From: Pseudohongiella acticola
GTDB taxonomy: Bacteria; Pseudomonadota; Gammaproteobacteria; Pseudomonadales; Pseudohongiellaceae
Direction of reading: 5' to 3'
Assembly (NCBI RefSeq): GCF_001758195.1
Contig: NZ_MASR01000001.1
Location: forward strand, 620,001 to 684,000
DNA: 64,000 bases
The notes beneath the pieces are model-generated. The model did not search any database and was not told the origin of the DNA. It was given only the letters and a program-made list of their open reading frames with translations. A program made the translations under genes and the position numbers. Positions 41,513-45,878 of the stretch are shown here, one piece after another (the first letter of the stretch is position 1; each line of letters begins with the position of its first letter).

Positions 41513-42670
41513 CTAGGATCCGGTTTGCCGGGCAATGATATCACTGCTTTCGACCGCCGCCCGGCGATAACGTTCACTGCGTCGGGTCTGATCGGCGACT
41601 TCACCGACCAGTTGTCCACACGCAGCGCCAATATCATCACCACGGGTGGTACGAACAGTGACCGTGTAACCCGCATCCAGCAATATCTGCCGGAAATTGG
41701 ACACCGAGGAATTGCTCGGACGACGATAGTCGGACTGGGCAAACGGATTAAACGGGATCAGGTTGATCTTGCATGGAAAGTTCTGCAGCAAGGCAGCGAG
41801 TTCGCGCGCATGCTGCCGATGGTCATTGACGCCAGCAATCAGGGTATATTCAATGATCGGCACGCGTTTGTCAGGCAGACTGGCCATGTAATCAGACACG
41901 CTTTTCAGCAGCATCTGAATCGGGTACTTGCGATTGACCGGCACGATCTGATTGCGCAACTCATCATTGGGCGCGTGCAAAGAAATGGCCAGCGACGCAT
42001 CCGTATGGTCTTTGAGACGGTTGATGGCCGGCACTACGCCGGCAGTGCTGATGGTTACCCGCCGTTTGGACAGACCGTAAGCGTTGTCTTCCATCATCAG
42101 GCTGAGGCCGTCCATGACATTGTCAAAATTAAGCAGGGGTTCGCCCATGCCCATCATGACAATATTGCTGACCATCCGGTTCATTTTACCTTCGCCTCGC
42201 TTGGTCGTTGCGAAGCCACCCAGACGATGATTGGCCCACCACAGTTGCCCGATGATTTCTGCGGTGGTCAGGTTACTGTTGAACCCCTGTTTGCCGGTAG
42301 CGCAGAAACTGCAGTCCAGCGTGCAACCGGCCTGGGAGGAAATACACAACGTGCCGCGAGTCGCCTCCGGAATAAAAACAGTTTCCACCCGGCTACCGCT
42401 GGCGACCTGAACAATCCACTTATAACAGCCATCGCTGGCCAGATGCTCATCCACAATAGTCGGCAATCTGATCTCGGCATTTGCCTGCAATTTCTCACGC
42501 AGACTTTTGCTGACATCCGTCATTTCGGCAAAATCGGTGACGCCGCGTTGATGTATCCATTTCATTACCTGGACAGCCCGAAACGGTTTTTCATCCATTG
42601 ACTGGAAATATGCCTGCAACTTGGGCAGGCTCATTCCCAGCAAATTGATTTTTTCGACCGATTCGTTCAT
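41513..42670 (-). CDS. rlmN: Dual-specificity RNA methyltransferase RlmN
   Basis: Radical SAM enzyme adding the C2 methyl group to A2503 of 23S rRNA and A37 of some tRNAs. 385 residues. Cluster motif [11 protein letters not shown] (CxxxCxxC). The segment [13 protein letters not shown] is present, as is the catalytic methyl-carrying cysteine in DIGAACGQL near the C-terminus. Start follows the ndk gene by 56 bases. The context ndk-rlmN-rodZ-ispG is classical. Confidence 0.97.
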
Positions 42671-42726: not shown

Positions 42727-43155
42727 TCAGCTACGCGGGCAGATTTCTTCAGCCTTAAAGAAGTAGGCTATTTCGCGGGCGGCTGACTGCTCAGAGTCTG
42801 AACCATGTACTGCATTGGCATCGATGGACACAGCAAAATCGGCGCGAATGGTGCCTGCGGCGGCTTCGGCCGGGTTGGTAGCACCCATCAGCTCGCGGTT
42901 TTTGGCGACCGCGCCTTCACCTTCGAGCACCTGCACCATAACAGGGCCAGAGGTCATGAACGCGATCAGGTCTTTGAAGAAGCCACGCTCTTTGTGCTCG
43001 GCGTAGAAGCCGCCAGCGGACTCATCAGTCAACTGAACCATTTTGGCCGCAACAATGCTCAGACCAGCTTTTTCAAAGCGGGAGTAGATCTCACCGATCA
43101 CGTTTTTGCCGACAGCATCGGGTTTGATAATTGATAATGTACGTTCTTTAGCCAT
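42727..43155 (-). CDS. ndk: Nucleoside diphosphate kinase
   Basis: Transfers the gamma phosphate from ATP to other NDPs. Start at 43155 ([15 protein letters not shown], 142 residues), with GGAG upstream; the longer frame to 43197 has no support. The phosphorylated histidine is in [12 protein letters not shown], and the nucleotide-binding [13 protein letters not shown] is intact. It lies directly after iscS (149 bases), where E. coli-like relatives have the rest of the isc operon in between. Own promoter visible. Confidence 0.98.
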
Positions 43156-43195
43156 TGTTTCGCTCCACAGCCTGTTACTGGTATAAAAGGCGCGC

Positions 43196-43201
43196 ATTAT
43201 A
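43196..43201 (-). promoter_or_regulatory. Probable -10 element for ndk
   Basis: TATAAT on the minus strand, followed by the GC-rich stretch GCGCGCC typical of growth-rate-regulated promoters, 40 bases upstream of the ndk ATG. No good -35 hexamer at 16-18 bases. Confidence 0.5.
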
Positions 43202-43304
43202 CTGGCTTATGGGCAGGTATTTCTACAGCAGTGCACCGTAACCATGCGCAATACCTCGCCAGTTACCGTAAATAAGCTCCGATATCGGGCACGTTTGGGG
43301 CTTT

Positions 43305-44471
43305 TTATGCGTGCGCGCGCGCCGGCTGGCGTAATTGCGCCAGTGTACGGACCAGGCAGTCCAGTGCCGTATCAATGTCCTGAGGTGTGCTGAAACGACC
43401 AAACGACACTCTTAATGCGCTTTGCGCCATGTCCTCTTCCACGCCCATCGCCTTAAGCACATAGGACGGCTCCAGTGTTGCCGACATGCAGGCAGAGCCA
43501 GAGGATACGGCAATCTGGCGAAGCGCCAGCAGCAGGGATTCGCCATCAACGCCGGCAAACCCCAGATTGACGATGCCAGGCACACCATTATCGGCCTGGC
43601 CATGAAGCTGCCAGCCCGGCACGCCGTCCAGTCCTGTCAGCAACTGTTGACGCAGATCACGCAGTCGCAGCAACTCATCCGGCATCTGGGCCCTGGCCAG
43701 GCGAAATGCCTGTCCCATGCCCACCAATTGATGCGTAGGCAATGTGCCTGACCGCATACCACGTTCGTGACCTCCGCCGTGGATCTGCGCAGCCAGCTCA
43801 ACGCGGGGGTCGCGGCGCACAAACAGAGCGCCGACACCTTTCGGGCCATAGACTTTGTGGGCAGACAGAGACATCAGGTCAACCGGTAACTGCATCAGAT
43901 CAATGGGCACCTTACCCGCACCCTGCGCAGCATCGACATGGAACAACACATTATGCGCACGTGTTATCGCACCAATAGCGGCCAGGTCGTTGATACTGCC
44001 AGTTTCGTTATTGACGTGCATCAGGCTGACCAGGATGGTATCGCCCCGGATCGCTTCCTCAACGCGAGCCGGGTCGATGGACCCGTCAGCCTCAGGTTTG
44101 AGATAGGTGACCTCAAACCCTTTCTGCTCGAGGTAGTGACAGCTGTCGAGCACGGCTTTGTGTTCTACGCGAGAACTGATGATGTGGCGACCCTTATTCG
44201 CATGAAACCCGGCAACGCCTTTGATGGCAAGGTTGTCAGCTTCAGTGGCACCGGAAGTCCAGACAATTTCACGCGGGTCACAGTTGATCAGTTCCGCCAC
44301 ATCACGGCGGGCGTTTTCAACCAGCTCTTCCGCCTGCCAGCCATACAGATGTGAGCGCGACGCTGGATTACCGAACTGTCCCTCCAGGGTCAGACAGCGC
44401 GCCATCGCCTCAGCCACCAGCGGGTCGACCGGTGTGGTCGCGGCGTAATCAAGATAAACCGGCAACTGCAT
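43305..44471 (-). CDS. iscS: Cysteine desulfurase IscS, lacking the C-terminal tail
   Basis: PLP enzyme taking sulfur from cysteine for iron-sulfur clusters and tRNA thiolation. Start at 44471 ([17 protein letters not shown], 388 residues), one base after the iscR stop. PLP lysine in [16 protein letters not shown]; sulfur-carrying cysteine in [18 protein letters not shown]. coli IscS is 404 residues and ends with a tail (SPLWEMYK...) that contributes to docking IscU. Here the chain stops right after the helix ending [14 protein letters not shown]. No iscU, iscA, hscB, hscA, fdx or iscX follows; the next gene is ndk. Confidence 0.95.
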
Positions 44472-44472
44472 A

Positions 44473-44934
44473 CTACCCCCCGCGAATAACCAGCTCGCGC
44501 CGCTCATCCTGGCTGAGCGCCACAGACTTTACCTCATGGCGCTGCATCAGGTCGGCGAGCGAAATGCTGCGCAAAAAATCATTGATCTGGGCACTCAGAT
44601 CCTCCCACAGATGGTGGGTCAGGCAGATCTCGCCCTGCTGACAATTACCCTGCCCCTGACATTTGGTGGCATCCACCGATTCATCAACCGCATCAATAAT
44701 ATCGACAATGGCGATGGCCATGGTGTCTCGGCCCAGCCGGTACCCGCCGCCCGGTCCCCGCACACTGTGCACCAGCCCGTGGCGGCGCAGGCGCGCAAAC
44801 AGCTGCTCCAGATAGGACAATGATATGTCCTGTCGCAGAGAAATATCGGACAGCGTCACCGGTTCCGGATCGCCGTGAATGGCCAGATCCAGCATGGCGG
44901 TGACCGCGTAGCGACCTTTTGTTGTCAAACGCAT
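44473..44934 (-). CDS. iscR: Iron-sulfur cluster regulator IscR
   Basis: Rrf2-family repressor sensing cluster status. 153 residues. N-terminal winged helix with [18 protein letters not shown] and [20 protein letters not shown]. The three cluster ligands are spaced CX5CX5C in [20 protein letters not shown]. First gene of the two-gene iscR-iscS unit; a matching IscR site lies over its promoter, so autoregulation is likely. Confidence 0.96.
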
Positions 44935-44968: not shown

Positions 44969-45001
44969 ATTATGGAATACCACAGTATTTTTATCAACTA
45001 T
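44969..45001 (-). promoter_or_regulatory. iscR promoter with overlapping IscR type 1 site
   Basis: Minus strand: TTGATA (44992-44997), 17 bases, CATAAT (44969-44974). Overlapping it, 44977-45001 reads ATAGTTGATAAAA then ATACTGTGGTAT, which agrees with the type 1 IscR motif as I remember it (ATASYYGACTRwwwYAGTCRRSTAT) at 20 of 25 positions, including both outer ATA/TAT ends. Placement over the -35 and spacer fits repression by cluster-loaded IscR. Confidence 0.75.
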
Positions 45002-45032: not shown

Positions 45033-45878
45033 ATGATAGACCTTCATTCTCACACATGGTTCTCTGACGGACAGCTTAGCCCGCAGGCCCTGATCTCGCG
45101 CGCCGCCACGCTCGGCATCAGCCAGCTCGCCATCACCGATCATGACAGTGTTGCCGCGCACCGGAGCCTTGCTGCCGCGAATATTCCAGCCGGCATGCAA
45201 GTGATTACCGGTGTCGAGATATCAACGCTTTGGGATAATCGCGAAATTCATATCGTTGGGCTTTTTGTCGATACTGAAGACGCCCTGCTGAACGCCCTGC
45301 TCAAGCAACAACAGGAAAAGCGCCGCCTGCGCGCCCTGGACATTGGCCTCAAGCTGCAGAAATCAGGAATCACAGGGCTGGAGAGCTACCTGGCAGAGTT
45401 GCCATGTGAGGCGATCAGCCGCAATCACATCGCTGATTTTCTGATTGCGCGTGGCCATGCGAGCAGTAAGCAGCAGGCGTTCAGCAAACACCTGGGTAAA
45501 CGCGGACGTTTTCATAGCAATGCAGACTGGTGCTCGATCGCTGAGGCGGTAGCGAGTATCAAAGCCGCCAACGGCCTCTCTGTGGTCGCCCACCCGGACC
45601 GATATAAACTCAACAAAATAAAGTTACGTCGATTGCTGGCAGAATTTACCGAGGCTGGCGGTGATGCGCTGGAGGTCAGTTACTCCAACCTTAACCCGGA
45701 CACGTTGAAGAACCTGGCTGATTTATGCTGCGAACTGGATATGTGGGCATCGGTGGGCTCGGACTTCCACACGCCCGATACTACCTGGATGGATCTGGGC
45801 AGGGTTCGAAAACTGCCTGCCCATTGCGAATCGAGGGCGATCTGGTTGCACCCGCAGTGGCCAGCAACGCACCGCTGA
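45033..45878 (+). CDS. rnm: PHP-domain 5'-3' exoribonuclease, RNase AM type
   Basis: Member of the TrpH/YciV family, which in E. coli trims 5' ends of rRNA and degrades short RNAs and 3'-5' bisphosphonucleotides. 281 residues. PHP metal ligands: IDLHSHTWFSDG (HxH, ~4-6), AITDHDS (~34-40), Glu in ITGVEIS (~66). Late ligands are in VAHPDRYKL and GSDFHTPDT. Divergent from iscR and ending exactly against the stop of the convergent zinc-ribbon gene. Confidence 0.92.
   Translation: MIDLHSHTWFSDGQLSPQALISRAATLGISQLAITDHDSVAAHRSLAAANIPAGMQVITGVEISTLWDNREIHIVGLFVDTEDALLNALLKQQQEKRRLRALDIGLKLQKSGITGLESYLAELPCEAISRNHIADFLIARGHASSKQQAFSKHLGKRGRFHSNADWCSIAEAVASIKAANGLSVVAHPDRYKLNKIKLRRLLAEFTEAGGDALEVSYSNLNPDTLKNLADLCCELDMWASVGSDFHTPDTTWMDLGRVRKLPAHCESRAIWLHPQWPATHR

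Follow-up and report, generated by a model that had tools for sequence, protein, structure and literature searches.

A cysteine desulfurase without its IscU-binding tail, left between iscR and ndk in Pseudohongiella acticola, and the matching loss of tail and scaffold across Gammaproteobacteria

What does the cysteine desulfurase IscS serve when the genes that elsewhere follow it in the isc operon are gone? The question is raised by a 64,000-nt stretch of the genome of Pseudohongiella acticola (contig NZ_MASR01000001.1, positions 620,001–684,000; hereafter, the window), in which iscR, iscS, ndk, and rlmN follow one another on the minus strand (Table 1). A preliminary description of the sequence had noted that iscS is directly followed by ndk with the outer genes in order, and this arrangement was confirmed. 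The full order iscRSUA-hscBA-fdx-iscX-ndk-rlmN is present in other Gammaproteobacteria (e.g., loci L002, L003, and L025). In the window, a single base lies between the iscR stop codon and the iscS ATG, and a second possible iscS start at 44507 is also open. Within the space between iscS and ndk, no remnant of the IscS tail was readable in three forward frames, and no match to an ISC gene was convincing (best E-values, 0.1–1); a frameshifted tail or an iscU remnant was rejected as an explanation, because neither was seen. A PHP-domain protein gene (window 45033–45878) is transcribed divergently from iscR.

Table 1. Features of the iscR-iscS-ndk-rlmN locus (coordinates are those of the window)
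Feature	Position	Strand	Description
Type-1-like IscR site (predicted)	44977–45001	minus	Ahead of iscR; matches the consensus assumed here at 20 of 25 positions
iscR	44473–44934	minus	153 aa; [2Fe-2S] Rrf2-family regulator
iscS	43305–44471	minus	388 aa from MQLPVYLDY; cysteine desulfurase without the IscU-binding C-terminal segment
iscS-ndk gap	43156–43304	minus	149 bases; elsewhere the site of iscU-iscA-hscB-hscA-fdx-iscX
ndk	42727–43155	minus	Nucleoside-diphosphate kinase; outer flank in kept order
rlmN	41513–42670	minus	Outer flank in kept order
rodZ-like, ispG (GcpE), and hisS-like genes	beyond rlmN	minus	The hisS-like gene is presumably hisS

The encoded IscS matched residues 1–382 of the 404-residue E. 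coli IscS and lacked its conserved last 22 or so residues, the missing part corresponding to a stretch of 22 residues of the E. coli protein; the earlier claim that the protein stops before the IscU-binding tail was therefore correct. It scored 585.5 against the IscS profile NF010611 (cut-off, 548) and 576.7 against TIGR02006 (cut-off, 643.2). All the equivalents of the residues that we took to form the active site (H104, N155, D180, Q183, K206, C328, and R354, including the PLP lysine and the catalytic cysteine) were present, as were the TusA contacts W45, E49, E52, R55, R220, and R237. Because the segment is absent, this IscS is predicted to be unable to bind IscU through it.

No match to IscU (PF01592) was found in the whole genome, which spans 3.61 Mb and is listed as 100% complete (contamination, 0.12), so an assembly gap is an unlikely cause. 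A failure of the search is also unlikely, because the same search found IscU over the cut-off in 63 of 115 genomes of the order and in 12 of 14 control genomes. CyaY gave no match in this genome, the best isc-type ferredoxin match scored 60.4 against a cut-off of 132.1, and the best match to the HscA model, at 625 bits, lay below the cut-off of 708.55 and looks like DnaK, with dnaJ- and grpE-like frames beside it. Thus, no iscU-iscA-hscBA set was seen elsewhere in the genome. The preliminary description had allowed for SUF as another scaffold, and a suf operon, in the order sufB, sufC, sufD, sufS, sufA, sufT, and sufE, was found at approximately 598.7–605.0 kb of contig 1; the window begins approximately 15 kb further on, and the distance to iscS is 58 kb. 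SufB, SufC, SufD, and SufS each exceeded one curated NCBIfam cut-off, and SufE exceeded the Pfam cut-off and fell below the NCBIfam cut-offs. The genome also encodes TusA (two matches), TusE (DsrC family), and ThiI.

The neighboring regulator scored 214.5 bits against the IscR profile TIGR02010 (cut-off, 207.55) and 216 against NF008110 (cut-off, 275). Its cluster ligand motif, which starts at residue 92 and comprises Cys92, Cys98, Cys104, and His107 in what we take to be the E. coli numbering, was complete, and the motif was also present in 100 of the 101 readable IscR proteins of the order. We scanned for IscR sites with a type-1 consensus that we assumed rather than derived; as a positive control, the E. 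coli iscR gene scored 24 and 22 of 25. Against 300 shuffles (mean, 15.2; best, 20), the predicted site upstream of iscR in the window only equals the top score, which an unrelated position of the window, 62638, also reaches; what marks the iscR site is its conservation rather than its score, since all 15 genus members examined carry such a site at 20–22 of 25. A predicted site upstream of sufB in the same genome scored 23 of 25, and 8 of 16 sufB upstream regions held a match of 19 or more. Over 2.9 Mb of loci, all matches of 22 or more lay upstream of iscR or sufB, these loci having been chosen around genes of this type and thus forming a modest background. The proposition that IscR still controls iscS is therefore supported as a prediction, and the predicted site before sufB supports a control that would reach beyond iscS.

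If IscU and the IscS tail belong together, their presence should agree among related genomes, as the preliminary description had suggested in pairing the loss of genes with the loss of the matching contact. In the 115 genomes of the order (P. acticola included), IscU was over the cut-off in 63 and SUF was found in 52; by profile counts, both occurred in four genomes (G053, G074, G081, and G099) and neither in another four (G006, G020, G051, and G054, with completeness of 72, 90, 81, and 90%, respectively). The IscS C-terminus could be read in 112 genomes, G051, G054, and G060 having no IscS at the threshold used. The end of the G039 protein runs into an assembly gap and was not counted, and G099, with a tailless IscS, was left out of the tail counts: its “IscU” is a 77-bit match beside suf genes and is better called SufU. 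On this basis, an intact tail was present in 61 of 61 genomes with true IscU and in 0 of 49 without it, two of the latter (G024 and G087) having decayed tails. The other ISC components were distributed similarly: HscA was over the cut-off in 56 of 63 IscU-positive genomes vs 0 of 52 IscU-negative genomes, the isc-type ferredoxin in 60 of 63 vs 0 of 52, and CyaY in 28 of 63 vs 2 of 52, the last two genomes being G051 and G054, fragmented members of a genus (g8) in which IscU was present in every other member seen. G053 holds both forms: one IscS is tailed and accompanied by iscU and iscA, and the other, encoded between iscR and ndk, is tailless. In the IscS tree, the tailed protein of its isc operon (contig C15, L210), which exists alongside the tailless iscRS locus and SUF, is nearest to that of G090, from another family; this genome probably regained ISC by transfer.

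The same agreement was observed across the class. Among 140 genomes, 97 had an IscS-like match at an E-value of 1e−90 or better, and IscU was counted as present in 62 of these, 61 with a PF01592 match of at least 134 bits. The remaining one, G143, was counted because a single frame beside iscS has two partial matches (85 and 88 bits), the only match of at least 134 bits in this genome looking like NifU; a NifU-like match in G234 was not counted as IscU. All 62 IscS matches in the IscU-positive genomes reached residues 402–404, and an intact tail was present in 0 of the 35 IscU-negative genomes, among which G175 and G201 reach 399 or more by coordinates and were judged by eye to have decayed tail residues, and some of whose proteins share only 41–50% identity with E. 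coli IscS and are possibly desulfurases of another kind. The case that would speak against the pairing, IscU in a genome with a short-tailed IscS and no other, occurred in none of the 61 genomes of the order and none of the 62 of the class; the idea that gene loss and contact loss agree is thus strongly borne out. Adjacency is not the cause: in nine class genomes (G119, G161, G166, G182, G197, G199, G200, G205, and G238), iscU and iscS are on different contigs or separated by at least 59 kb, and IscS still has its whole tail, so the tail follows the presence of IscU. Broken assembly is possible where the contigs differ; in G119, G182, and G238, iscS and iscU are on one contig. In addition, the tail (SPLW.M...) is a cheap genomic marker: in these samples, a genome with only tailless IscS never had a true IscU. 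In G143 (C129:9921–11327), the match to the IscU encoded next to iscS is split into two parts approximately 0.9 kb apart within one open frame of 484 codons, possibly reflecting an in-frame insertion such as an intein.

Loci with part of the operon left were also found. G149 and G175 have iscS, a degenerate IscU-like gene, iscA, ndk, and rlmN; G118 has iscS, an IscU-like gene, ndk, and rlmN; G189, G125, G251, G213, and G168 have iscS, iscA, ndk, and rlmN, and G234 has the same genes plus a trace of IscU (29 bits) next to iscS; and G201, like the window, has iscS, ndk, and rlmN. This survey used an IscU search at an E-value of 1e−3, which a very degenerate IscU could escape. We infer that these loci may be ordered as stages from a full isc operon to a stripped one. 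A degenerate IscU-like gene directly follows a tailless iscS at L222–L231, L064, L069, L070, and L080; in the ten class genomes, its open frame is 122–168 codons long. Each of the 14 proteins aligned has lost at least one of the three ligand cysteines, the first in every case, and LPPVK is kept only in L069. Such a gene may have been retained as a pseudo-scaffold with a different function. A whole suf operon separates iscS from ndk in Alteromonas, Cellvibrio, Gilvimarinus, and Aestuariicella; at L017, L057, L061, L063, and L074, complete sufBCDSATE occupies the space before ndk-rlmN, as if SUF had been exchanged for ISC in situ. In G024 (L176:5703–6626), a phage-integrase-family gene lies between the iscS with the decayed tail and ndk, where isc genes would be; no match to iscR was found in the 4.4 kb before this iscS, and ThiI is fragmented in this genome, perhaps through assembly errors.

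The tail is one of several docking surfaces of IscS. The contacts of IscU on E. coli IscS are Glu309–Ala316, Glu347, the end of helix 11, and Arg379–Lys391, and IscS without residues 376–404 does not bind IscU, according to PMC2854127, which is also the source of the TusA contacts used here. The R220E/R223E/R225E mutation abolishes ferredoxin binding and R112E/R116E weakens it (PMC3750173), and R220, R223, and R225 are also described as belonging to the CyaY/IscX site (PMC11302665). We compared 60 tailed with 51 tailless IscS proteins of the order, more than half of the 51 being from one family. Of the eight active-site residues checked, S203 varied in both groups and the other seven did not differ between them, apart from one letter that could not be read. 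Among 183 columns conserved in the tailed proteins, the most relaxed in the tailless ones were R225, K221, R112, R116, R223, E117, E227, E285, F89, Q113, E347, and M315. The TusA contacts were largely kept, with W45, E52 (D in E. coli), and R55 at 100%, R220 and R237 at 98%, and E49 at 69% vs 93% in the tailed proteins; R220, the residue of the basic patch that TusA also uses, is the one that stayed. In permutations among conserved columns, which ignore relatedness, relaxation was concentrated in the arginine patch (P ~0.002), in the ThiI-linked set (P = 0.005), and in the IscU site (P = 0.04, a weak test by itself), and the TusA set relaxed less than average, not significantly (P = 0.2). In a wider set of 51 IscS proteins, a few rows of which overlap with the order set, at least one of R112, R116, K221, R223, and R225 was changed in 29 of 29 tailless vs 0 of 22 tailed proteins, and W45, R55, and R237 were unchanged in all 29 tailless proteins and R220 in 28.

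These patterns have bounds. Among the 35 tailless proteins of the class, 27 from deeper families were read (among L222–L256); W45 was kept in 5 and replaced in 22, and R220 and R237 were often gone, so service to TusA is not general. Tailed class proteins also vary at the patch, R116 being kept in four of eight read. ThiI is encoded in P. acticola and in many of its relatives, and yet the ThiI-linked residues drift; among tailless IscS proteins, their state shows no convincing relation to ThiI (F89, P = 0.02; R340, P = 1), and the presence of ThiI as a cause of the drift at F89, R116, and R340 is unsupported. TusA is missing from two ISC genomes (G094 and G111), the tailed IscS of which keep W45, a residue at 100% in the tailed set, and TusE is missing from some tailless genomes (e.g., G073 and G113), in which W45 is also kept.

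With good confidence, we propose that the IscS of P. acticola gives sulfur to TusA (and ThiI) rather than to cluster assembly, and that SUF, probably under IscR, builds the clusters. An ancestor with both machines, or one gaining SUF, would have come to depend on SUF, and iscU-iscA-hscBA-fdx-iscX would then have been lost from between iscS and ndk. IscS may have been retained because it also feeds ThiI and TusA, and through the latter TusE, thiolated tRNA, and perhaps the molybdenum cofactor. The docking sites of IscU, ferredoxin, CyaY, and IscX would have come under relaxed selection once these partners were lost: the C-terminal segment would have been cut, and the basic patch (112/116/221/223/225) and the IscU contacts (309–316 and 347) would have drifted, with the active-site and most TusA-contact residues held. 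IscR, still next door, probably senses the cluster demand served by SUF via the sites before iscR and sufB. The preliminary description had offered two roles for this IscS. Of these, tRNA thiolation fits best, because the TusA contact residues are conserved and TusA, TusE, and ThiI are encoded, and a role in SUF is less probable, given that the suf operon encodes a SufS and a SufE of its own.

The latter role nevertheless survives best among the alternatives, in the form that IscS was recruited as a second sulfur donor to SUF (to SufE or SufBCD), the pruned surface making room. The iscR-iscS pair directly heads the suf operon in G075, G076, G087, and G091 and in Alteromonas, Cellvibrio, Gilvimarinus, and Aestuariicella, and is thus likely to be co-expressed with it; however, these loci carry sufS, and those of the four named genera, as well as P. 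acticola itself, also have sufE. Likewise, a few columns are more uniform in tailless IscS (S356 in 51 of 51 and L at 314 in 45 of 51), but these columns are dispersed along the protein, and a single family supplies more than half of the 51 proteins compared. We therefore regard such recruitment as improbable.

A loss of the tail in place can be weighed against the proposal that the tailless IscS belongs to a foreign lineage and took the place of the native gene, tail and IscU status traveling together by descent or transfer with no functional link. A tree of DnaK-DnaJ-GrpE from 58 of the 115 genomes required 14 changes of ISC/SUF state on the best tree. In the family of P. acticola, it joined the SUF genera g1, g5, and g7 in one clade (support, 98), with the ISC genera g4 and g6 next to it. 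The IscS tree of the order instead grouped the tailless proteins (SH-aLRT, 97), with G024 apart, in conflict with the chaperone tree, as a foreign lineage would have it. However, when the tailed and tailless IscS of the family were held together (with eight long-branch genomes and the IscU-contact columns 305–320 and 344–350 left out), the constraint was not rejected and gave a higher score (log-likelihood, +20.4; p-AU, 0.72), a result pointing to long-branch attraction, and G024 sits among tailed IscS yet has a decayed tail. The wider set comprised 43 hand-picked proteins from the 80 named loci, seven from the order, and that of E. coli; its tailless members include those of Pantoea/Erwinia, Idiomarina/Aliidiomarina, Alteromonas, Halopseudomonas, Cellvibrio, and the genus of P. 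acticola, and those of Pantoea and Erwinia share a supported group (97) with their counterparts in E. coli, Gilliamella, and Bisgaardia. What was seen of the named loci is the neighborhood rather than the whole genome, and the SUF-only status of Halopseudomonas is taken from PMC11559095. In this set, a single tailless clade was rejected (p-AU, 0.0005) and at least four changes of tail state were forced; tail loss was thus convergent, and replacement by a foreign lineage is largely refuted and has a slim probability. The notion that the IscS C-terminus is merely variable and matches IscU loss by phylogenetic coincidence draws on the two to three ISC/SUF changes forced by well-supported branches of the chaperone tree, which leave just two usable pairs in an independent-pairs test within the order, but it is already contradicted by a tail that is near-invariant with IscU, even where iscU is not adjacent, and by the repeated changes in the wider set, and is highly improbable.

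More broadly, we lean toward a view of IscS as a modular hub whose docking faces would be pruned one by one, repeatedly, as partners vanish, with all stages represented in Gammaproteobacteria, the leftover IscS being a dedicated sulfur donor for thio-tRNA and IscR being re-used for SUF. The sharing of sulfur by one desulfurase among competing acceptors has been studied with E. coli IscS mutants. Evolution has, in effect, run a separation-of-function experiment several times, in which the TusA face is kept by sequence and the IscU and ferredoxin/CyaY/IscX faces are gone, and tailless IscS proteins are ready tools for testing which residues serve which partner. The replacement of W45 in deeper families predicts that the Tus relay is lost or changed there, and the IscR sites suggest how a regulator may keep its job once the machine it served is replaced.

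Cluster machineries were reportedly surveyed in 2022 by Garcia and colleagues. That SUF replaces ISC is known and common, and Halopseudomonas is described as SUF-only in PMC11559095, which cites a survey of over 9,000 genomes; the parts of that paper seen cover the distribution of the machineries and do not mention a leftover IscS or its tail. As in P. acticola, SUF is the sole cluster builder in Halopseudomonas, and its IscS is tailless and precedes ndk-rlmN (L010 and L024). In a search of open-licence papers, we found no report of IscS tail loss tracking IscU loss or of partner-wise pruning of IscS. Compared with E. coli IscS (PDB 1p3w and 3lvj–3lvm), the protein encoded in the window has 59% identity over 382 residues and the same catalytic residues, and in both species iscR lies upstream of iscS with type-1-like IscR sites; unlike in E. 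coli, iscU-iscA-hscBA-fdx-iscX is missing behind iscS, the protein ends at residue 388, and the ferredoxin/CyaY/IscX patch has drifted. The engineered deletion of residues 376–404 (PMC2854127) likewise lacks the IscU contact helix, whereas the loss of the type seen in the window is natural, repeated, and shorter, and is accompanied by decay of the ferredoxin/CyaY/IscX site. The iscR-iscS-sufBCDSATE-ndk-rlmN loci of Alteromonas, Cellvibrio, Gilvimarinus, and Aestuariicella share a tailless IscS between iscR and ndk-rlmN and the loss of the ISC genes, but there suf fills the gap, whereas in P. acticola it lies elsewhere on the contig. To the known replacement of ISC by SUF, the present comparison adds, as far as can be read from the sequences, a repeated, partner-by-partner decay of the IscS surface, a TusA face kept in the order of P. 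acticola, and predicted IscR sites on both iscR and suf.
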